Below, piece by piece: positions 3,342 through 39,016 of a DNA stretch of 39,016 nt (position 1 is its first letter; every line of letters begins with the position of its first letter). The notes beneath the pieces were generated by a model that did not search any database, was not told the origin of the DNA, and saw only the letters and a list, made by a program, of their open reading frames with translations. Origin of the DNA: Prevotella sp. Lineage in GTDB: Bacteria; Bacteroidota; Bacteroidia; Bacteroidales; Bacteroidaceae. The translations under genes and the position numbers were made by a program. The DNA is taken from assembly GCA_022778905.1 (NCBI GenBank), contig JALFRV010000156.1, forward strand, positions 1 through 39,016, written 5' to 3'.

Positions 3342-4583
3342 ATGAAAAAAATCGGGCTAACCATGATGCTATGGACCATCGCATGGATAGTTCAGGCACA
3401 GTCGATCACAGGCTCCTGGCATGGCAAATTGGATGTCGGAGGGCAGCAGTTGAGTGTCGTCTTCAACCTCTCCACCGACTCCGAGGGCAAGGCACAATGC
3501 ACGATGGACGTGCCCCAGCAGGGCGCGCAGGGCATTCCCGTGACCTTGACCCATCTCTCAGCCGACTCCCTCAACCTTGAGGTGCCGCAGATCGGCCTGT
3601 CGTATGCCGGCCGGCGCGACGGCGATGCGATCAAAGGCACGTTCCGGCAGGGTCCGGTCACGCTGCCATTGGAACTGAAACCAGGTCAGACGGCAGCCCC
3701 CAACCGGCCTCAGGAGCCCAAGGCGCCGTTCCCCTACCAGTCGGAAGAGGTGTCGTTCAGCAATCCGCAGGCCGGCGCCACGCTGTCCGGGACGCTCACC
3801 TATCCCGTCGGTTACAAGCCCGGACGGCGCGTGCCCGTGGTGCTGATGGTGACGGGAAGCGGCGCGCAGACCCGCAACGAGGGCGTCTTCGATCACAAAC
3901 CGTTCCTCGTCCTCGCCGATTACTTCGCCCGAAACGGCATCGCTTCGCTGCGCTATGACGACCGCGGTACAGGCCGTTCGACCGGTCAGTTCAAGGGAGC
4001 CACGTCGGCAGACTTCGCCGAAGACGCGAAATGCGGCCTCGACTGGCTGAAGAAGAGCGGCCGGTTCGGCCCCATCGGACTGCTCGGACACAGCGAGGGC
4101 GGCCTCATCGCATTCATGATCGGCGCCCGGAAAGCGGCGGATTTCATCGTCAGCATGGCCGGACCGGGCATCAAGGGCGACACGCTGATTGCCGAACAGG
4201 CCAATGCCAACCTGCAGATATACGGCCAACAGCCCAAGCAGACGGTCGTCAACCTGCGCCGCGAGTTAGCTGCCCTGCCGCAAGACCCATGGATGAACTA
4301 TTTCATCGACTGCGACCCGGCATCCTATATCCGCCAAGTGAAGATCCCGGTAATGGCCATCAACGGCAGCAAAGACCATCAGGTGCTGCCCGGGACCAAT
4401 CTGACGGCGATCCGGGAACTGCTGAAAGACGCCAACCGGAAGAACCTCATCCGCGAGTATCCGGGCCTGAACCACCTGTTTCAGCACTGCACAACGGGCG
4501 GCGCCAACGAGTATTACCAGATCGAGGAGACCATGTCGCCCGAGGTGATGAAGGACATCGCCGACTGGATCCGGCAGCTGTAG
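3342..4583 (+). CDS. Secreted alpha/beta hydrolase (serine hydrolase)
   Basis: The 413-residue protein starts with a signal peptide (MKKIGLTMMLWTIAWIVQAQ), so it is exported to the periplasm or beyond. Residues about 20-125 form a small beta-rich domain often found ahead of the hydrolase in Bacteroidetes proteins. The alpha/beta hydrolase domain follows, with LRYDDRGTGRS, the nucleophile elbow GHSEGG, a probable acid in NGSKDHQV and the catalytic histidine in GLNHLFQ. The triad is complete. It resembles dienelactone-hydrolase or S9-like esterases; the substrate cannot be told from sequence. The 69-nt gap after the carbamoyltransferase gene would allow co-transcription, but the functions are unrelated. 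An early ORF at 3269 in another frame is a shadow. Confidence 0.85.
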   Translation: MKKIGLTMMLWTIAWIVQAQSITGSWHGKLDVGGQQLSVVFNLSTDSEGKAQCTMDVPQQGAQGIPVTLTHLSADSLNLEVPQIGLSYAGRRDGDAIKGTFRQGPVTLPLELKPGQTAAPNRPQEPKAPFPYQSEEVSFSNPQAGATLSGTLTYPVGYKPGRRVPVVLMVTGSGAQTRNEGVFDHKPFLVLADYFARNGIASLRYDDRGTGRSTGQFKGATSADFAEDAKCGLDWLKKSGRFGPIGLLGHSEGGLIAFMIGARKAADFIVSMAGPGIKGDTLIAEQANANLQIYGQQPKQTVVNLRRELAALPQDPWMNYFIDCDPASYIRQVKIPVMAINGSKDHQVLPGTNLTAIRELLKDANRKNLIREYPGLNHLFQHCTTGGANEYYQIEETMSPEVMKDIADWIRQL

Positions 4584-4698: not shown

Positions 4699-4784
4699 TG
4701 AAAAAAGAGCGATCCGCGGTAAATGTATGCTCGATCCGAGACGGAAGCATGCACTGTCAGCGGCACAGAAACATGGCGGCCGCG

Positions 4785-4804
4785 GTGATAATAATTGTTA
4801 TCAC
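4785..4804. promoter_or_regulatory. 20-bp near-perfect palindrome upstream of the aldolase gene, possible operator
   Basis: GTGATAATAATTGTTATCAC is symmetric except for one base pair of its half-sites. It lies about 50 bp upstream of the -7 box of the threonine aldolase gene. The length and symmetry suit a dimeric transcription factor. The regulator is unknown and no second copy was noticed in the window. Confidence 0.45.
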
Positions 4805-4851
4805 TGATGGATAAATCAGGTATCGGATGCCCTGCTTTATCCTTTTTTTAT

Positions 4852-4859
4852 TACTTTTG
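4852..4859 (+). promoter_or_regulatory. -7 promoter box of the threonine aldolase gene
   Basis: TACTTTTG fits the Bacteroidetes TAnnTTTG -7 consensus. It lies 24 nt before the ATG chosen at 4884, and inside the longer ORF that starts at 4827, which argues against that longer start. No convincing -33 element is visible. Confidence 0.5.
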
Positions 4860-4883
4860 CAGCGTATCAAAACGGCAAAAGAC

Positions 4884-5912
4884 ATGATTTCCTTTGAATG
4901 TGACTATAACAACGGCGCCCATCCGAAAGTTTTGGAACGCCTGATCGAGACCAACGACCGCCAGAGTCTTACCTACGGCTTCGACGAGTGGAGTGACGCG
5001 GCGCGCCAGAAGATCCGCGAAGCCTGTCAGACACCTGGCGCCCAGATCTTCTTCCTCAGTGGTGGCACGCAGACGAACATGACGGTCATCGACGGCATGG
5101 CAGCCCCTTACCAGGCCGTGATCACCGCTGAGACGGGTCATATCAACGTCCATGAGGCCGGCGCCATCGAGTTCACGGGGCACAAGGTGATCGCCTTGCC
5201 CTCGCACGACGGCAAGATGGACGCGGCGGAGCTGCAGCATTACATGGACTGGTTTGTCCATGACGAGAGCACGGAGCATCTTGCGCAGCCCGGACTGGTC
5301 TACATCACGTTCCCCACCGAATACGGCACCCTCTACAGCGCGGACGAGATCGACCGCATCCACGCCGTGTGCCTGCGCTACGGACTGAAGCTCTTCATCG
5401 ACGGCGCGCGTCTCGGCTACGGCTTGGAGGCCATCGGCAGCGATGTCGACCTGCCCTTCCTGTCTGCCCACTGCGAAGCTTTCTATATCGGAGGGACCAA
5501 GGTCGGCGCGCTCTGTGGTGAGGCCGTGGTCTTCCCAAGGGCAGCCGACATGCCGGCCCACTTCTTCTCCATCATCAAGCAACACGGTGCCCTGATGGCC
5601 AAGGGACGCCTCATCGGACTCCAGTTTGACGCCCTTTTCACCGACGGGCTCTACTTCCGCATCGCCCGCCACGCCATCGAGATGGCTGCGAAGATGAAAC
5701 GTCTCTTCGCCGAACGCGGCTACCGGTTTTCGATCGACTCTCCTACCAACCAGCAGTTTGTCATCATTCCCAACGACAAGGTGAAGGAACTGGAGCAGCA
5801 GGTGCTGTTCACCCACTGGGCACCCTATGGCAGTGACGCCACCGAATGCCGGTTTGTCACGAGCTGGGCCACCACGGACGAAGACCTGCAGACGTTGAGC
5901 ACGGTCATCTGA
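4884..5912 (+). CDS. ltaE: Low-specificity L-threonine aldolase, PLP-dependent
   Basis: This PLP enzyme of fold type I cleaves threonine or allo-threonine to glycine and acetaldehyde in the cytoplasm. The start at 4884 (MISFECDYN) is preferred over the track start at 4827 because a -7 promoter box lies in between and the family starts at this point; this gives 342 residues, a normal length. Visible features are FFLSGGTQTN (PLP phosphate region), FIDGARLGYG with the cofactor-pairing aspartate (Asp173), and the Schiff-base lysine in YIGGTKVG (Lys206). A palindrome upstream may be an operator. The convergent ABC ATPase gene ends 24 nt away. A threonine dehydrogenase-like gene sits at the far right of the window but is not linked. 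Confidence 0.9.
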   Translation: MISFECDYNNGAHPKVLERLIETNDRQSLTYGFDEWSDAARQKIREACQTPGAQIFFLSGGTQTNMTVIDGMAAPYQAVITAETGHINVHEAGAIEFTGHKVIALPSHDGKMDAAELQHYMDWFVHDESTEHLAQPGLVYITFPTEYGTLYSADEIDRIHAVCLRYGLKLFIDGARLGYGLEAIGSDVDLPFLSAHCEAFYIGGTKVGALCGEAVVFPRAADMPAHFFSIIKQHGALMAKGRLIGLQFDALFTDGLYFRIARHAIEMAAKMKRLFAERGYRFSIDSPTNQQFVIIPNDKVKELEQQVLFTHWAPYGSDATECRFVTSWATTDEDLQTLSTVI

Positions 5913-32553: not shown

Positions 32554-33603
32554 TCACTTGTAGAAGTTGTGCTCGTAAGCGGCGAACTCATCCTTGCCCT
32601 GCACGCATCGCTTCCACCACGCCTCGATGAATCCGCAGCCGTAGCCGATGAGCTGCGTGAAGGCGGCACGTACGGCGAGGAGCCCGATCTTCTCGCTATT
32701 GTTCTTGATGGTTGCGTCAAAAAAGAGGATGGCGGCATAGAGGAGGATGGGGCAGAGCGAGAAGATGCTTACCGCGATGCCCAATGCTTGCTGCATGCCG
32801 GCAGGCAGGAGGAAGAAGAGCACGATGCCCGTGAGGAAGCCGGTCAGCAGCAGGGCCACCCCGACGGTGAACACCATCGGGAGCAGGTGGACTGCCTTGA
32901 GGCTGCCGGGATGGCGCTTGTGGAGGTTGATGCGGGCGATGCCCGAGTTGTAGACCTGCCGCCAGAACTTGCGGAAGTCGGTTCGCCGCTTGTGCCAAAC
33001 CCATGCCTCGGGGAACAGGCGGCATCGGCAGCCGGCCTGGTAGAGGCGGATCGAGAAGTCGATGTCTTCGCCGAAGCGCATCCGGGAGAATCCGCCGAGA
33101 CGCAGGTAGACATCGCGCCGGATGCCCATGTTGAAGGACCGGGGGTAGAACTTGTCGAGCTTCTTCTTCCCTCCCCGTATGCCTCCGGTGGTGAAGAAGG
33201 ATGTCATCGAGTAGGAGATGGCCTTCTGCACGTCGGTGAAGGAAGCGTGCGCACGGTCCGGACCGCCGAATGCGTCGGCCGGTTCGCGCTGAAGTTCGGC
33301 GTCAATCGCAGCCATATAGCCTTCGGGCAGCACCACGTCGCTGTCGAGGATGAGCAGGTATTCGCCCTGTGCACGCTCCGCGCCGTAGTTGCGGCTTTGC
33401 CCCGGACCGCTGTTGGACTTCATGAAATAGTGGAGGTCAAGTTTGTTCCGGTAGTGGTCGCAGACTGTCCGGCAAGGCTGCTGTGATCCGTCTTCGACAA
33501 CGATCACTTCAAAATCGCGGTACGACTGCTCCGTGAGGCTCGACAAGAGTTCGTCTATCTCTTCGGGGCGGTTGTAAACTGGAACGATGATGGAATATTT
33601 CAT
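32554..33603 (-). CDS. Family 2 glycosyltransferase with C-terminal membrane segments
   Basis: A 349-residue GT-A enzyme. The nucleotide-sugar site is at the N-terminus (IIVPVYNRPEEID, VVEDGS), the DxD-type motif is DSD (87-89, LLILDSDVVLP), and a catalytic-type ED is in FGEDIDFSIRLYQAG with a following histidine in WVWHKRRTDFRKF. About four hydrophobic segments lie at 245-330 (VFTVGVALLLTGFLTGIVLF), anchoring the enzyme on the inner membrane with the catalytic domain in the cytoplasm. It could act on cell-surface glycans or glycolipids. It stands alone between a repeat-rich gap and efp, so context gives no acceptor. Confidence 0.88.
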   Translation of the reverse strand: MKYSIIVPVYNRPEEIDELLSSLTEQSYRDFEVIVVEDGSQQPCRTVCDHYRNKLDLHYFMKSNSGPGQSRNYGAERAQGEYLLILDSDVVLPEGYMAAIDAELQREPADAFGGPDRAHASFTDVQKAISYSMTSFFTTGGIRGGKKKLDKFYPRSFNMGIRRDVYLRLGGFSRMRFGEDIDFSIRLYQAGCRCRLFPEAWVWHKRRTDFRKFWRQVYNSGIARINLHKRHPGSLKAVHLLPMVFTVGVALLLTGFLTGIVLFFLLPAGMQQALGIAVSIFSLCPILLYAAILFFDATIKNNSEKIGLLAVRAAFTQLIGYGCGFIEAWWKRCVQGKDEFAAYEHNFYK

Positions 33604-33628
33604 GGACAGGCAGAGCTAATGGGGAAAG

Positions 33629-33787
33629 GTGAAAAAGTAAAAGCGTAAAAAGGCAAGAAGCGCGTTGCCGATGGGCTGCACCCATGGAGAGGGAGCGGGA
33701 ACGACAAAATGTAAAAAGGTAAAAGGGTAAAAAAGTAAAACAGACAGATCTGCCGCCCGCTTTACATTTACCCTTTTACCTTTTTCC
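33629..33787. repeat. Hairpin repeat C (GTAAAA microrepeat arms)
   Basis: A 19-bp perfect inverted repeat, AAAAAGGTAAAAGGGTAAA (33713-33731) and its complement at 33767-33785, with a 35-nt loop. A degenerate further copy of the GTAAAA words lies at 33629-33652, and a small hairpin ATGGG/CCCAT (33671-33685) is between. It is directly downstream of efp on the minus strand and may act as its terminator. Confidence 0.75.
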
Positions 33788-33794
33788 GTTTCCG

Positions 33795-34361
33795 TTATGC
33801 GTTCACGCGGCCTACGTAGCTTCCGTCACGCGTATCAACGGTGATGGTCTCGCCCTCGTTGATGAAGAGAGGCACGCGCACCTCTGCTCCGGTCTCGAGC
33901 GTAGCGGGCTTCGTGGCGTTGGTGGCCGTGTTGCCCTTCACGCCCGGCTCGCTATGGGTGATGAGCAGGTTGGTCTTGATCGGCATTTCGGCAGAGAGGA
34001 TGGTGCCGTCGGAGGTGTCAGTCACCACGTCGACGATGTCGCCTTCCTTCATGAATTCCGCTCCGGTGATCATATCCTTGGCGATCGGAATCTGCTCGAA
34101 AGTCTCCTGGTTCATGAAGATGCAACCCGTGCTGTCTTCATAGAGATACTGATAGGGGCGGTGCTCTACGCGGACGTCATCGAGCTTGAACCCAACCTGG
34201 AAGGTGCGTTCCAGCACTCGGCCGTCTGCCACATTCTTCAGCTTGGTGTTCATCACCGTGTTTCCCTTTCCGGGCTTCCTGTGTTGGAAGTCGATACATT
34301 TCCAGATGCCTCCATCCAAGCGGATGCAGGTACCGATTTTGATTTCTTGTGAATTGATCAT
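33795..34361 (-). CDS. efp: Translation elongation factor P
   Basis: A 188-residue tRNA-like protein that rescues ribosomes stalled at polyproline. The three beta-barrel domains are present: N-terminal KOW-like (IKIGTCIRLDGG), the middle domain (RTFQVGFKLDDVRVEHRPYQYLYEDS) and the C-terminal domain ending TVDTRDGSYVGRVNA. The tip of the first domain reads HRKPGKGNTV with Lys32, the usual modification site (Lys34 in E. coli). No epmA or epmB-like gene lies in the window. The gene is divergent from rpmH, a common order in Bacteroidales, with a promoter box at 34405-34412. Confidence 0.96.
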   Translation of the reverse strand: MINSQEIKIGTCIRLDGGIWKCIDFQHRKPGKGNTVMNTKLKNVADGRVLERTFQVGFKLDDVRVEHRPYQYLYEDSTGCIFMNQETFEQIPIAKDMITGAEFMKEGDIVDVVTDTSDGTILSAEMPIKTNLLITHSEPGVKGNTATNATKPATLETGAEVRVPLFINEGETITVDTRDGSYVGRVNA

Positions 34362-34404
34362 TGCAAATATCTGTAATTTCTTGTTATTATCTCTTTTGCG
34401 GGTG

Positions 34405-34412
34405 CAAAGTTA
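34405..34412 (-). promoter_or_regulatory. -7 promoter box of efp
   Basis: CAAAGTTA (plus strand) is TAACTTTG on the minus strand, followed by CA, 44 nt before the efp ATG. No clear -33 element. The box lies in the short divergent gap shared with rpmH. Confidence 0.55.
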
Positions 34413-34463
34413 CAAAGAAATAATAAAAAAAGGCTTCTTTTAAGGCGAAAAATCGAATAAATC

Positions 34464-34494
34464 TTTGTCATTTCGAAAATTATGCGTAATTTTG
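34464..34494 (+). promoter_or_regulatory. Promoter of rpmH
   Basis: TTTG at 34464-34467 and TAATTTTG at 34487-34494 are 19 nt apart, a full match to the Bacteroidetes -33/-7 pattern. The ATG is 56 nt downstream of the box. Confidence 0.75.
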
Positions 34495-34550
34495 CAGCCC
34501 AAACGGGAGTATTCCAGCATTGATCAAAATCATAAAAATATAATAAAACA

Positions 34551-34706
34551 ATGAAAAGAACATTTCAGCCGCACAATCGCCGTCGCGTCAACAAGCATGG
34601 TTTCCGTGAGAGAATGGCGACAAAGAACGGCCGTCGCGTACTGGCATCCCGCCGTGCTCACGGACGTAAAAAGTTAACCGTTTCGGACGAGAATCACGGT
34701 AAGTAA
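34551..34706 (+). CDS. rpmH: 50S ribosomal protein L34
   Basis: A 51-residue protein not listed in the ORF track because it is short. It reads [20 protein letters not shown] and goes on with [20 protein letters not shown], the full L34 signature, with a short C-terminal tail (TVSDENHGK). A consensus promoter and a strong rho-independent terminator frame it, so it is a single-gene transcript. A minus-strand ORF over it (34588-34908) is a shadow. Confidence 0.98.
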
Positions 34707-34741
34707 TTCGCTCGCGATCCGATTGGAACGACCAGAAGGAA

Positions 34742-34786
34742 ACAGAAAGATGCCAAGCTGACGGCTTGCGTCTTTCTGTTTTTTTT
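34742..34786 (+). terminator. Rho-independent terminator of rpmH
   Basis: ACAGAAAGA...CAAGC pairs with GCTTG...TCTTTCTGT around a short loop, followed by a run of eight or more T. It lies 36 nt after the rpmH stop. Confidence 0.9.
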
Positions 34787-34860
34787 GTCCTCTCAGGCCG
34801 GAAGCGCCTTCCGGATCCCGCGTCCGGATCCTGCGGTGGCGAAGAAAAGCAGCGCTTTTC

Positions 34861-34891
34861 TTTGTCGTTCATCCTTTTTGTACTATCTTTG
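34861..34891 (+). promoter_or_regulatory. Promoter of the PASTA/rluD/ddl unit
   Basis: TTTG (34861-34864) and TATCTTTG (34884-34891), 19 nt apart and followed by CAG, match the Bacteroidetes promoter pattern fully. The ATG at 34911 is 20 nt downstream of the box. It probably drives the PASTA gene, rluD and ddl. Confidence 0.75.
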
Positions 34892-34910
34892 CAGCATAAA
34901 CGGATCATGA

Positions 34911-35645
34911 ATGAAATCTTCTGAGTTCGCCGGAAAATTCAAGAGCAGATACCTCTGGGGCAATCTGGCTGCGATGGCTGCCGTGGTTGTCTTGTTGTGC
35001 ATAGGCATCAAGTACGGCCTTGATCTATATACCCACCACGGAGAGTCCATCCCCATCCCCAACATCGTACATCGCTCGTATGCCGACGCCGAACGTATCC
35101 TCGACGATGCAGGCCTTCAGATACAGGTCACAGATACCGGATACGTCAAGTCGCTGCCACCCGACTGCATCCTGGCACAGTCGCCCGATGCAGGCGAAAG
35201 GGTGAAGGCCGGCCGCATCGTCTATGTCACGATCAACTCGCCCCATACGCCTACGCTCGTCCTGCCTGACATCATCGACAACAGTTCGCTGCGTGAGGCG
35301 ATGGCGAAGCTGACAGCCATGGGCTTCAAGTTGGGTCAGCCACAATACATCACCGGTGAGAAAGACTGGGTGTACGGCGTGCTCGTGCGCGGCAGACACG
35401 TCGTCACCGGCGACCGGATCTCCGTGGAGGATCAGGTGATCATACAGGTCGGAAACGGCTTGCGTGACGCATCGGATTCCGTGAACTACGTTGATCCCGT
35501 CTATCCCGAATCACATGGCGACCAGTCAGATATGATGGAGGACTTTGAGGAAGTCACGGCGCCGCCCTCAGAGCCTGCTCCGCAGGTCGCGCCGCCGTCA
35601 TCCGTCAAACCCGCAGCGCCCGTGAAGGAGAAAAAGACCGAATAG
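34911..35645 (+). CDS. PASTA-domain membrane protein
   Basis: A 244-residue protein with one TM (about 17-38, MAAVVVLLCIGIKYGLDLY) and at least two PASTA repeats outside the membrane (IPNIVHRSYADAERILDDAG with AQSPDAGERVKAGRIVYVTI, then LPDIIDNSSLREAMAKLTAM with VLVRGRHVVTGDRIS). The tail is rich in Pro, Glu and Val (about 205-244). PASTA domains usually bind muropeptides or beta-lactams. No kinase domain is attached. The stop lies one base before the RluD-type gene. Confidence 0.85.
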   Translation: MKSSEFAGKFKSRYLWGNLAAMAAVVVLLCIGIKYGLDLYTHHGESIPIPNIVHRSYADAERILDDAGLQIQVTDTGYVKSLPPDCILAQSPDAGERVKAGRIVYVTINSPHTPTLVLPDIIDNSSLREAMAKLTAMGFKLGQPQYITGEKDWVYGVLVRGRHVVTGDRISVEDQVIIQVGNGLRDASDSVNYVDPVYPESHGDQSDMMEDFEEVTAPPSEPAPQVAPPSSVKPAAPVKEKKTE

Positions 35646-35646
35646 C

Positions 35647-36711
35647 ATGGCAGAAGACATCGAAGAGATAGAAGGACTGGAAGACGAGGACCAGCAGCTC
35701 TATGAGCATTTCCGGTTCGTGGTCGACAAGGGGCAGGAGCCGCTGCGGATAGACAAATACATGCAGGAAAAGCTCCAGCACTCGAGCCGCAACCGCATCC
35801 AGAAAGCCGCGGATGCAGGCTTCGTCCATGTCAATGACCGCCCCGTGAAGAGCAATTACAAAGTTCGGCCGGGCGATGTCATCACCTTAATGCTCGACAC
35901 ACCGCGTCATGACAGCACCATCGTAGCTGAAGACATCCCGATAGACATCATCTACGAGGATGCCGAACTGATGGTCATCAACAAGCCCGCCGGACTTGTC
36001 GTCCATCCGGGAGCAGGCAATTTCCACGGCACACTGATCAATGCCATCGCCTGGCACATGCGTGAGGTGCCCGCATTCGATCCCAATGACCCGGAGGTAG
36101 GGCTGGTCCACCGCATCGACAAGGACACGAGCGGACTGATAGTCATAGCCAAGACGCCCGAAGCAAAGACCAAATTAGGCCTCCAATTCTTCAACAAGAC
36201 CACCCATCGCAGCTATAACGCCGTCGTATGGGGCAACTTCACAGAAGACGAAGGACGCATCGAGGGCAACATCGGGCGCGATCCGAAAGACCGGCTGCGC
36301 ATGGCCGTCTTCCCCGCAGACAGCGAGACGGGCAAGCCCGCCGTCACTCACTATCGCGTGATCGAGCGGTTCGGCTACGTCACCTTGGTGGAATGCGTTC
36401 TCGAGACGGGCCGTACGCACCAGATACGTGCCCACATGAAGCACATCGGACATCCCCTCTTCGGCGACGAGCGCTATGGCGGGACCGAGATACTGCGTGG
36501 CAACCGGAGCTCCACCTACAAGGCCTTCATCCAGAACTGCCTCACGCTTTGTCCCCGGCAGGCACTCCATGCGCGGACCATAGGATTCGTCCATCCCGTG
36601 ACCGGCAGGCAAATGGACTTCACGTCTGACCTTCCGGATGATATGAAACAATTGGTGTCCAAGTGGCAGACCTATGTAAAAGGTACCACGAACGATACAT
36701 TCGAAGAATAA
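35647..36711 (+). CDS. rluD: 23S rRNA pseudouridine synthase, RluD family
   Basis: A 354-residue enzyme of the RluA/RluD group that isomerises uridines in 23S rRNA. The S4 RNA-binding domain is at about 32-80 (RIDKYMQEKLQHSSRNRIQ). The catalytic domain has INKPAGLVVHPGAG, then the active-site motif HRIDKDTSG with catalytic Asp158, and the C-terminal RTHQIRAHMKHIGHPLFGDERYGG. It ends 17 nt before the ddl ATG. The specific target uridines (as for RluD) are inferred from the family. Confidence 0.9.
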   Translation: MAEDIEEIEGLEDEDQQLYEHFRFVVDKGQEPLRIDKYMQEKLQHSSRNRIQKAADAGFVHVNDRPVKSNYKVRPGDVITLMLDTPRHDSTIVAEDIPIDIIYEDAELMVINKPAGLVVHPGAGNFHGTLINAIAWHMREVPAFDPNDPEVGLVHRIDKDTSGLIVIAKTPEAKTKLGLQFFNKTTHRSYNAVVWGNFTEDEGRIEGNIGRDPKDRLRMAVFPADSETGKPAVTHYRVIERFGYVTLVECVLETGRTHQIRAHMKHIGHPLFGDERYGGTEILRGNRSSTYKAFIQNCLTLCPRQALHARTIGFVHPVTGRQMDFTSDLPDDMKQLVSKWQTYVKGTTNDTFEE

Positions 36712-36728
36712 ATAATACATTTCAAGCG

Positions 36729-37724
36729 ATGAAAGATTTGAAAAGAAATATCGCCATTGTGTGTGGTGGTGACTCGTCCGAGCATGATGTGTCCATGCGA
36801 TCCGCACAGGGACTCTACAGCTTCTTTGACAAGGAGCGCTACAATGTCTATATCGTCGATGTCAAAGGACTGGACTGGCAGGTGCACACAGATAACGGAC
36901 AGACTTCCCGGATCGACCGTAACGACTTCTCGTTCGTCAAGGACGGCAAGGCCGTCATATTCGATTACGCCTACATCACCATCCATGGCCAGCCCGGCGA
37001 GAATGGTCCGCTGCAGGGATATTTCGACTTACTGCGCATCCCTTACTCCACGAGCGGCGTGCTGGTCGAAGCAATGACCTTCGATAAGTATGTCCTCAAC
37101 AACTACCTGCGTGGCTTCGGCATCCGCGTGGCCGACAGTATGCTGCTCCGACGTGGCGACAGTTACGACGAGCAGGCTATCGAACGCCGGCTCGGCATGC
37201 CGTGTTTCGTCAAGCCGGCAGCCGACGGAAGCAGCTTCGGAGTCAGCAAGGTGAAGAACGCCGATCAGCTTTCGCCGGCCCTGCGTGTGGCTTTCATGGA
37301 AAGCAATGAGGTGATGATCGAGCGCTTCCTCGATGGTGTGGAGATCTCGCAGGGTGTCTACAAGACGCGCGAAAAGAGCGTCGTCTTCCCCGCAACGGAA
37401 GTTGTGACGAGCAATGAGTTCTTCGATTACGATGCCAAATACAACGGACAGGTCCAGGAGATCACCCCTGCCCGCATCGCTCCCGAGACCGCCGAGCGCG
37501 TCTCGGCATTGACCAGCCGCATCTATGACATACTCCACTGCAACGGGATCATACGCATTGACTATATCATCTCTAAGGACAAGGACGGCCAGGATCAGAT
37601 TAACATGCTCGAGATCAACACCACTCCGGGCATGACAGTCACCAGCTTCATTCCCCAGCAGGTCCGTGCGGCCGGTCTGGACATCAAGGATGTGCTGACC
37701 GACATCGTGGAGAACCAGTTCTGA
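36729..37724 (+). CDS. ddl: D-alanine-D-alanine ligase
   Basis: An ATP-grasp enzyme that makes D-Ala-D-Ala for peptidoglycan, in the cytoplasm. The start is placed at MKDLKRNIAIVCGG (36729), which gives 331 residues; the track start at 36663 lies inside the rluD gene. Motifs are GGDSSEHDVSMRSA, HGQPGENGPLQG, FVKPAADGSSFGVSKV and the metal-binding end LEINTTPGMT. The TPGMT end has Thr where most Ddl proteins have Leu or Met before Pro. The next reading frame is the collapsed acyltransferase 73 nt downstream. Confidence 0.94.
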   Translation: MKDLKRNIAIVCGGDSSEHDVSMRSAQGLYSFFDKERYNVYIVDVKGLDWQVHTDNGQTSRIDRNDFSFVKDGKAVIFDYAYITIHGQPGENGPLQGYFDLLRIPYSTSGVLVEAMTFDKYVLNNYLRGFGIRVADSMLLRRGDSYDEQAIERRLGMPCFVKPAADGSSFGVSKVKNADQLSPALRVAFMESNEVMIERFLDGVEISQGVYKTREKSVVFPATEVVTSNEFFDYDAKYNGQVQEITPARIAPETAERVSALTSRIYDILHCNGIIRIDYIISKDKDGQDQINMLEINTTPGMTVTSFIPQQVRAAGLDIKDVLTDIVENQF

Positions 37725-37797
37725 ACCTGTCCTTCGCATTGCCCGTTCCTATGAGGAGGCGGAAACATATACCATCAACCTATTAAACAGCGTGCTT

Positions 37798-37956
37798 ATG
37801 AAGATTCCTGAGATTTTTGATCCGATCCGTCCGTTCGAACCGGATGGATTGCCGGCAGCACACGACCGGACGCCGGGGAAGGACGAACCGTTCCTTCGGG
37901 AGCGGATCCTCACAAGGTACGCCAACCCGGCTATCAACTCCCTGAGCGCCCTATGA
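37798..37956 (+). pseudogene. Remnant of a 1-acyl-sn-glycerol-3-phosphate acyltransferase-like gene
   Basis: A 52-codon frame, too short for the ORF track. Its first about 24 residues (MKIPEIFDPIRPFEPDGLPA) match, from memory, the N-terminus of the Bacteroidetes lysophosphatidate acyltransferase that normally follows ddl. Residues about 27-49 (KDEPFLRERILTRYANPA) match the C-terminal end of the same protein. The middle of roughly 300 or more residues with the HX4D motif is missing, and the frame is kept. The stop overlaps the next gene as ATGA, as expected for the intact gene order. It could still be translated as a leader coupling ddl to the lipoprotein gene. It may be an in-frame deletion, or an assembly collapse. 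Confidence 0.6.
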
Positions 37957-38615
37957 GCCGGAGCCCGATCCTCCTCTGCCTGCTTCTGATCATGGCTGCA
38001 TGTACGGCGGATCAGTATGACACGGGCGACGGACGATACTCCTATCTGTCCGCCGACTTTGTCCGGGCGCACACGAGCATGGCCGGCGCGGTCGATTATG
38101 CCGTCACTGACGACGGCGACTCGCTGATCCTGAATCCGGAGGGCAAGGCTTCGTGGGCGACAAAGGCCGATTCTGTCTATCGCGCACTGCTATATTATAA
38201 TAAGGTGAAAGGTGGGGCTGAACCGGTGGTGATCACCCGGGTGCCGGTCATCATCCCCCTGGCGACCTCCCGTCCGGACACGCTGCGCACCGATCCCGTG
38301 ACTTTCGAGAGTGCCTGGGTGAGCAAGGACGGCCGCTATCTGAATGTGGGCTATGCCGTGAAGACCGGCCGGAGTGATCAGGCTGACACGCAATACCAGA
38401 CGCTCGGCATCCGTCTCGACTCGGCGGTGGCCGACACCGAGGGGCGGAGAAGAATATCGCTGACCATGTACCACGACCAGCATGGCGTGCCGGAATATTA
38501 CTCTGTGCGCGGTTATGTGAGCATCCCGTTGGACAAGGTGCAGCGTCCGTGCACATTGGAGCTGACGGTCAACACTTATTCCGGCGTGGTCCGCCGGGAG
38601 TTCCGGTGTGAATAG
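37953..38615 (+). CDS. NigD-like lipoprotein
   Basis: A 220-residue protein with a lipoprotein signal peptide: MSRSPILLCLLLIMAACTAD, with the lipobox cysteine at about 17 (MAAC). The body is beta-rich, with VPVIIPLATSRPDTLRTDPV, FESAWVSKDGRYLNVGYAVKTG and MYHDQHGVPEYYSVRGYVSIPL. This is the pattern of NigD-like proteins, common in Bacteroidales and of unknown function. It starts inside the stop of the preceding remnant (ATGA). It is followed by a strong hairpin terminator. Confidence 0.8.
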   Translation: MSRSPILLCLLLIMAACTADQYDTGDGRYSYLSADFVRAHTSMAGAVDYAVTDDGDSLILNPEGKASWATKADSVYRALLYYNKVKGGAEPVVITRVPVIIPLATSRPDTLRTDPVTFESAWVSKDGRYLNVGYAVKTGRSDQADTQYQTLGIRLDSAVADTEGRRRISLTMYHDQHGVPEYYSVRGYVSIPLDKVQRPCTLELTVNTYSGVVRREFRCE

Positions 38616-38645
38616 GCAGACGGTCCATTGCCGGATCCGAAAGGC

Positions 38646-38683
38646 AAAAGTGCATAGCCCGATTGCGGCTATGCACTTTTTTC
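38646..38683. terminator. Bidirectional rho-independent terminator
   Basis: AAAAGTGCATAGCC (38646-38659) pairs with GGCTATGCACTTTT (38667-38680), and T-runs follow on the plus strand (A-run at the start gives T on the minus strand). It sits between the lipoprotein gene and the convergent dehydrogenase gene and can serve both. Confidence 0.88.
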
Positions 38684-38689
38684 TGCTCT

Positions 38690-39016
38690 TTATCGTCCGA
38701 GTTTGACAGCTAACTTGTCCAGCATGTCGGCCGTCATGGCACTCAAGTCGTAGTCGGGCGTCCATCCCCACTCTTCGCGTGCACAGCTGTCGTCCATCCG
38801 GTCGGGCCAGCTGTCGGCGATACATTGCTTGAGCGGGTCGATCTCGTAGTCCATCTCGAAGGCCGGTTTGTGCTTTCTGATTTCCTCGAAGATGGTCTCC
38901 GGTCCGAAGCTCATGGAGGTGATGTTGAAGCTGTTGCGGTGGATGAGCTTGTCGGGATCGGCTTCCATGAGCATCATGGTGGCCTTGAGGGCATCGGGCA
39001 TGTAGATCATGTCCAT
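38690..39016 (-). CDS. Threonine 3-dehydrogenase-like SDR enzyme, C-terminal part
   Basis: The frame is open to the right edge, so only the last 108 residues are seen. MDMIYMPDALKATMMLMEAD, FNITSMSFGPETIFEEI and REEWGWTPDYDLSAMTADML are the conserved end of extended SDR enzymes of the Bacteroidetes threonine dehydrogenase/NAD-dependent epimerase group. Such enzymes oxidise threonine to 2-amino-3-ketobutyrate with NAD. A UDP-sugar epimerase is the alternative, but the end motifs favour threonine dehydrogenase. The catalytic Tyr-Lys part lies outside the window. Confidence 0.75.
   Translation of the reverse strand: MDMIYMPDALKATMMLMEADPDKLIHRNSFNITSMSFGPETIFEEIRKHKPAFEMDYEIDPLKQCIADSWPDRMDDSCAREEWGWTPDYDLSAMTADMLDKLAVKLGR

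Follow-up and report, generated by a model that had tools for sequence, protein, structure and literature searches.

Gene decay after duplication and xenologous gene displacement are a general evolutionary process, in which a redundant resident gene is deleted while a copy of other ancestry persists. The gene that concerns us here normally lies between ddl and nigD in Prevotella, and the closest described enzymes are those of the GPAT/PlsC superfamily. The intact protein of a sister genome, modelled by AlphaFold2 with a pLDDT of 93.5, has the acyltransferase fold, and its structural matches were human GPAT1 (8e4y, E 9e-10, the best), squash GPAT (1k30, 1e-4) and Thermotoga PlsC (5kym, 6e-4). 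The predicted fold is like that of these enzymes, at an identity of 10–13%, and by its fold, on this model, the ddl-linked family belongs among the GPAT/PlsC glycerophosphate acyltransferases. The first-pass annotation had named a lysophosphatidate acyltransferase; an acyltransferase agrees with the predicted fold, but the name itself was too specific, human GPAT1 being the closest match and Pfam PF01553 remaining below its cut-off on intact relatives (19–20 bits vs 23). NCBIfam holds no name for the intact enzyme, and a sequence search of solved structures with it yielded nothing useful. The ddl-linked gene was also tried as a member of PF19576, but this assignment was discarded, since what the family detects in almost every genome is another, unlinked acyltransferase.

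In relatives within the genus, the interval from ddl to nigD mostly holds an acyltransferase of 381–420 aa. Among 114 distinct copies of the family, 86 lie behind ddl and 20 behind glpR. A homologue was present in all 18 genomes that were checked individually (mostly genomes where the ddl-linked homologue had not been found, together with one locus cut by a contig end, one split copy and one copy 694 nt downstream), and a match to the family was obtained in 85 of 85 high-quality genomes of the genus. In three loci (L007 of genome G010, L157 and L185) nigD follows ddl after a few tens of nucleotides and the acyltransferase is gone entirely, apparently through independent losses at the same spot. 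The picture that emerges is that the gene is relocated or replaced and the old copy is then lost, with the locus described below as an intermediate stage; no literature on the replacement of an acyltransferase next to ddl in Bacteroidota was found. Two further arrangements were seen along the way. In L202 (G107), glpR, the acyltransferase and nigD come about 1.2 kb after ddl, i.e., both contexts stand side by side, which is a possible intermediate of relocation. In L177 (P. disiens JCM 6334) and L259 (G232:C139), the ddl-linked acyltransferase is in two overlapping pieces, indicating a frameshift or a sequencing error.

The window analysed here, i.e., the whole stretch of 39,016 nucleotides, is contig C305 of the rumen-type Prevotella MAG G000, which is 87% complete and consists of 318 contigs. 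On its forward strand, a rluD-like gene (35647..36711), named by resemblance and synteny rather than by a family search and conserved as a neighbour in relatives, lies upstream of ddl (36729..37724; Pfam PF07478/PF01820), which encodes a D-alanine–D-alanine ligase of 331 aa with 98% amino acid identity to that of the uncultured Prevotella sp. RUG301. The downstream neighbour is a nigD-like lipoprotein gene of 220 aa (37953..38615; Pfam PF17415 and PF12667, NigD_N/NigD_C). Between the two, at the location expected of the ddl-linked acyltransferase family, there is an open reading frame of 52 codons (37798..37956), which translates as MKIPEIFDPIRPFEPDGLPAAHDR-T-PGKDEPFLRERILTRYANPAINSLSAL followed by the stop and whose product has no Pfam match. 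In RUG301, a sister species (genome G176, contig ONHE01000097.1), the same place between ddl and nigD is occupied by an intact acyltransferase gene of 382 codons. The locus, the ends and the neighbours (rluD–ddl–acyltransferase–nigD) of such intact genes (RUG301, loci L102/L115) are the same as in the window; the window copy differs in having lost codons 25–354. Translation and alignment with the sister gene thus identify the short frame as an in-frame remnant, and the combined reading, that it is the deletion scar (a pseudogene) of the acyltransferase gene normally found here and that a glpR-linked copy has replaced it, is considered likely.

The extent of the deletion was measured against the sister. 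The retained 5′ end, acyltransferase codons 1–24 (37798..37869), aligns without gaps with 21 of 24 residues identical, and the retained 3′ end (37872..37956) comprises the last 27 codons and the stop. Where they meet, the two bases AC (37870..37871) stand for 992 nt of the sister gene (its bases 4700–5691, L102 reversed), a net loss of 990 nt or 330 codons that keeps the reading frame. Upstream of the junction, window positions 33171–37869 align with RUG301 without gaps at 96.7% identity, and downstream of it, positions 37872–39016 align with two gaps at 90.8%. The ends match far better than chance would allow, at 90% identity over 145 nt and at 93% over 329 nt, and the DNA alignment on either side makes both ends homologous to the ddl-linked family. 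The first-pass annotation, which had read this frame as an in-frame internal deletion whose two ends resemble the acyltransferase downstream of ddl, was borne out on both points, since the sister has the intact gene and the 381–420 aa proteins of relatives share both ends; its statement that the ATGA overlap with nigD (37953–37956) was kept also held, the overlap being present in the window and in the sister. A DNA-level search of 398 genomes of the genus found this scar in one of them and no other of such kind. The breakpoints in the sister gene have no repeat of at least 8 nt in common, the longest common words being 7 nt and off the junction, so that neither repeat recombination nor a k-mer collapse during assembly explains the join. 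A direct-repeat mechanism was accordingly ruled out, and illegitimate end-joining would, from the sequence, explain the join at 37869/37872.

The part that was lost contains the core of the enzyme. The SNHRDIVLD, IGDNLL and QREGR-type (QR-GR) motifs are all missing from the scar, and of 92 columns conserved at ≥97% among 112 intact homologues, 82 fall inside the deleted part. The claim that the catalytic middle was gone is thereby confirmed, and the 52-aa product cannot be the enzyme, given that the HRDIVLD core and these near-invariant positions are deleted. Structurally, all that is left is the C-terminal helix and a portion of one helix at the N-terminus, and the conserved His/Asp core (SNHRDIVLD) with the following motifs, by which GPAT/PlsC enzymes are recognized, is absent; the remnant keeps nothing of the core of 8e4y, 1k30 or 5kym.

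The remaining ends appear to have drifted. Between scar and sister, 8 differences are nonsynonymous and 6 synonymous, a ratio of rates of 0.41. The ratio is 0.09–0.12 for rluD, ddl and the gene that precedes them, 0.41 for nigD, and 0.00–0.23 when the corresponding ends of intact homologues are compared in 30 close pairs. The counts of 8:6 stand against about 53:150 in the ends of the intact pairs (Fisher p 0.027). Four of the eight amino acid changes (E17G, Y22H, M370R and Y378S in the numbering of the sister) bring in residues that no aligned intact homologue has, and only one of the 112 intact homologues likewise has four unique residues in those columns. Three of the eight differences look like changes in the sister lineage, the window keeping the common residue of the family, and the decay signal is therefore modest; within that limit it is real, and constraint on the scar looks relaxed. 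These data bear on the suspicion, raised in the first-pass annotation, of an assembly artefact, in which the gene (or that of one strain in a mixture) would be intact and the assembler would have joined its two ends. The source is a fragmented MAG, which lends the idea some weight. However, no word of 8 nt or more is common to the breakpoints, so that there was no k-mer through which the ends could collapse, the middle of the native gene occurs nowhere else in the assembly, and the four residues unseen in the aligned homologues argue for real decay, being unexpected in a functional gene that was cut only in silico. An artefact is accordingly quite unlikely, and the internal deletion of the ddl-linked gene is very probably real.

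If so, another enzyme might be expected, and the prediction of a second acyltransferase was followed by the finding, in a search of the same assembly, of an intact homologue of 386 aa at C87:1438-2595. Its identity to the intact ddl-linked copy in the sister is 59%, and the other matches to the family in G000 were confined to the remnant on C305 and a 33% identical paralogue on C308, which has a counterpart in the sister (C50). The gene order on C87 is the start of a glpD-like gene (on the opposite strand), glpR, the acyltransferase, an IS relic and gnd (6-phosphogluconate dehydrogenase), with glpD, glpR and the transposase named by resemblance and gnd by PF00393. A tree of 114 homologues places the C87 copy with those of P. 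dentasini (78% identity) and RUG759 (SH-aLRT 98), near that of G179 and apart from the ddl-linked copy of the sister; the members of its P. dentasini/RUG759 group are all glpR-linked. That it arose from the lost gene by recent duplication was rejected on the 59% identity to the gene of the sister and the different clade. The glpR-linked acyltransferases of P. dentasini, RUG759, G179 and G010 are full-length members of the same family, 67–78% identical to the C87 copy, and neither their position in the tree nor their place on the chromosome is that of the ddl-linked gene in the sister. Between the acyltransferase and gnd lies a relic similar to a DDE transposase gene (C87:2600-3470), 68% identical at the DNA level to an intact copy in G179 (L112); the relic may mark how the acyltransferase block moved.

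The hypothesis that the glpR-linked copy took over the function of the collapsed gene requires that C87 belong to this organism, as we infer that it does, and that its product replace the lost function; on balance, this replacement is probable. The main doubt is misbinning. C87 is 4.4 kb long with 46% GC, vs a mean of 53% in sampled chunks of which 4 of 49 are lower, a composition that neither proves nor excludes its membership in this MAG. The contig has no counterpart in RUG301, and its gnd (3474-4416) is absent from the sister and from 23 other genomes of the same genus that were tested, and would, by this distribution, be either a recent gain or a sign of misbinning. C87 may thus have a foreign origin, whether it entered the genome or only the bin. 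Were the deletion real and C87 misbinned, the function might be covered by the C308 paralogue or by another enzyme, such as the PF19576 acyltransferase on C190, both being present in the genome, or it might have been lost. This course, to which the atypical composition and gnd of C87 give some support, is improbable, though less so than an artefact of assembly: the sister also has the C308-type paralogue yet keeps its ddl-linked gene, G220–G224 and others have such a paralogue plus a full-length copy of the family, and with all 85 high-quality genomes matching the family, a genome with the paralogue alone would be exceptional.

The first-pass annotation had also proposed that the short frame might now serve as a translation-coupling leader. 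The idea, in which the 52 codons (or a micro-protein encoded by them) would be retained because they deliver ribosomes to nigD, draws on the kept frame and the kept overlap, and an overlap of −4 nt is more frequent than any other spacing in intact loci, being present in 27 of the 68 where a downstream ORF was found. Furthermore, there is no −7-like element (TAnnTTTG) between ddl and nigD, so that nigD probably depends on the operon transcript, and an in-frame loss would spare it from polarity. The nearest such element upstream, TATCTTTG (34884..34891, forward strand), is a candidate promoter for 34911-38615, proposed by its match to the Bacteroidota −7 consensus. Against this, the overlap was inherited, since the sister has the same one, the frame survives one random deletion in three and may have been kept by chance, and G010, L157 and L185, with nigD directly after ddl, do without any leader. 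The short ORF is, moreover, unique to one of the 398 genomes, and its substitution ratio is that of relaxed constraint, with no conservation or purifying selection detected. The retention of the ORF as a leader is therefore unsupported and unlikely, and its stricter form, a dead enzyme gene under selection solely for carrying ribosomes to nigD, is slightly less probable again. For annotation, this means that the short ORF after ddl should not be taken for a new small protein. Scans for sigma-70 promoters and terminators found nothing; in the whole window, TAnnTTTG occurs 17 times vs 5.7 expected, as for Bacteroidota promoters.

Returning to replacement by the glpR-linked copy, the events could have run as follows. 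A second acyltransferase of the same family, either acquired by the lineage or retained in it as an old paralogue, would have been present in the glpR–acyltransferase block now on C87 and would have made the ddl-linked gene dispensable. A single illegitimate end-joining deletion, with no end repeat and 2 nt of filler, would then have removed the 330 codons. With a length divisible by three, this loss disturbed neither the reading frame nor the stop/start overlap with nigD, and ribosomes on the operon transcript would still reach nigD. The order, gain before loss, is presumed, and the kept frame would be due either to luck or to weak selection against a polar effect on nigD. Seen in this way, the locus would cleanly capture a core lipid gene as it moves to another place on the chromosome, with the sister intact, the genome of the window scarred and a second copy present. 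It fits the pattern across the genus, where the acyltransferase lies behind ddl or behind glpR and genomes that lack the ddl copy have one elsewhere. The scar looks like ordinary gene decay after replacement and leaves general ideas unchanged; it does not differ in kind from the process described at the outset, and the kept frame and gene overlap are its neat detail. Synonymous divergence between the window (33171-37869) and RUG301 (L102) was 0.09–0.13 around ddl, vs 0.51 for the C308/C50 paralogue pair, and judging by the lower value, a recent exchange between the two lineages may have affected the ddl region.
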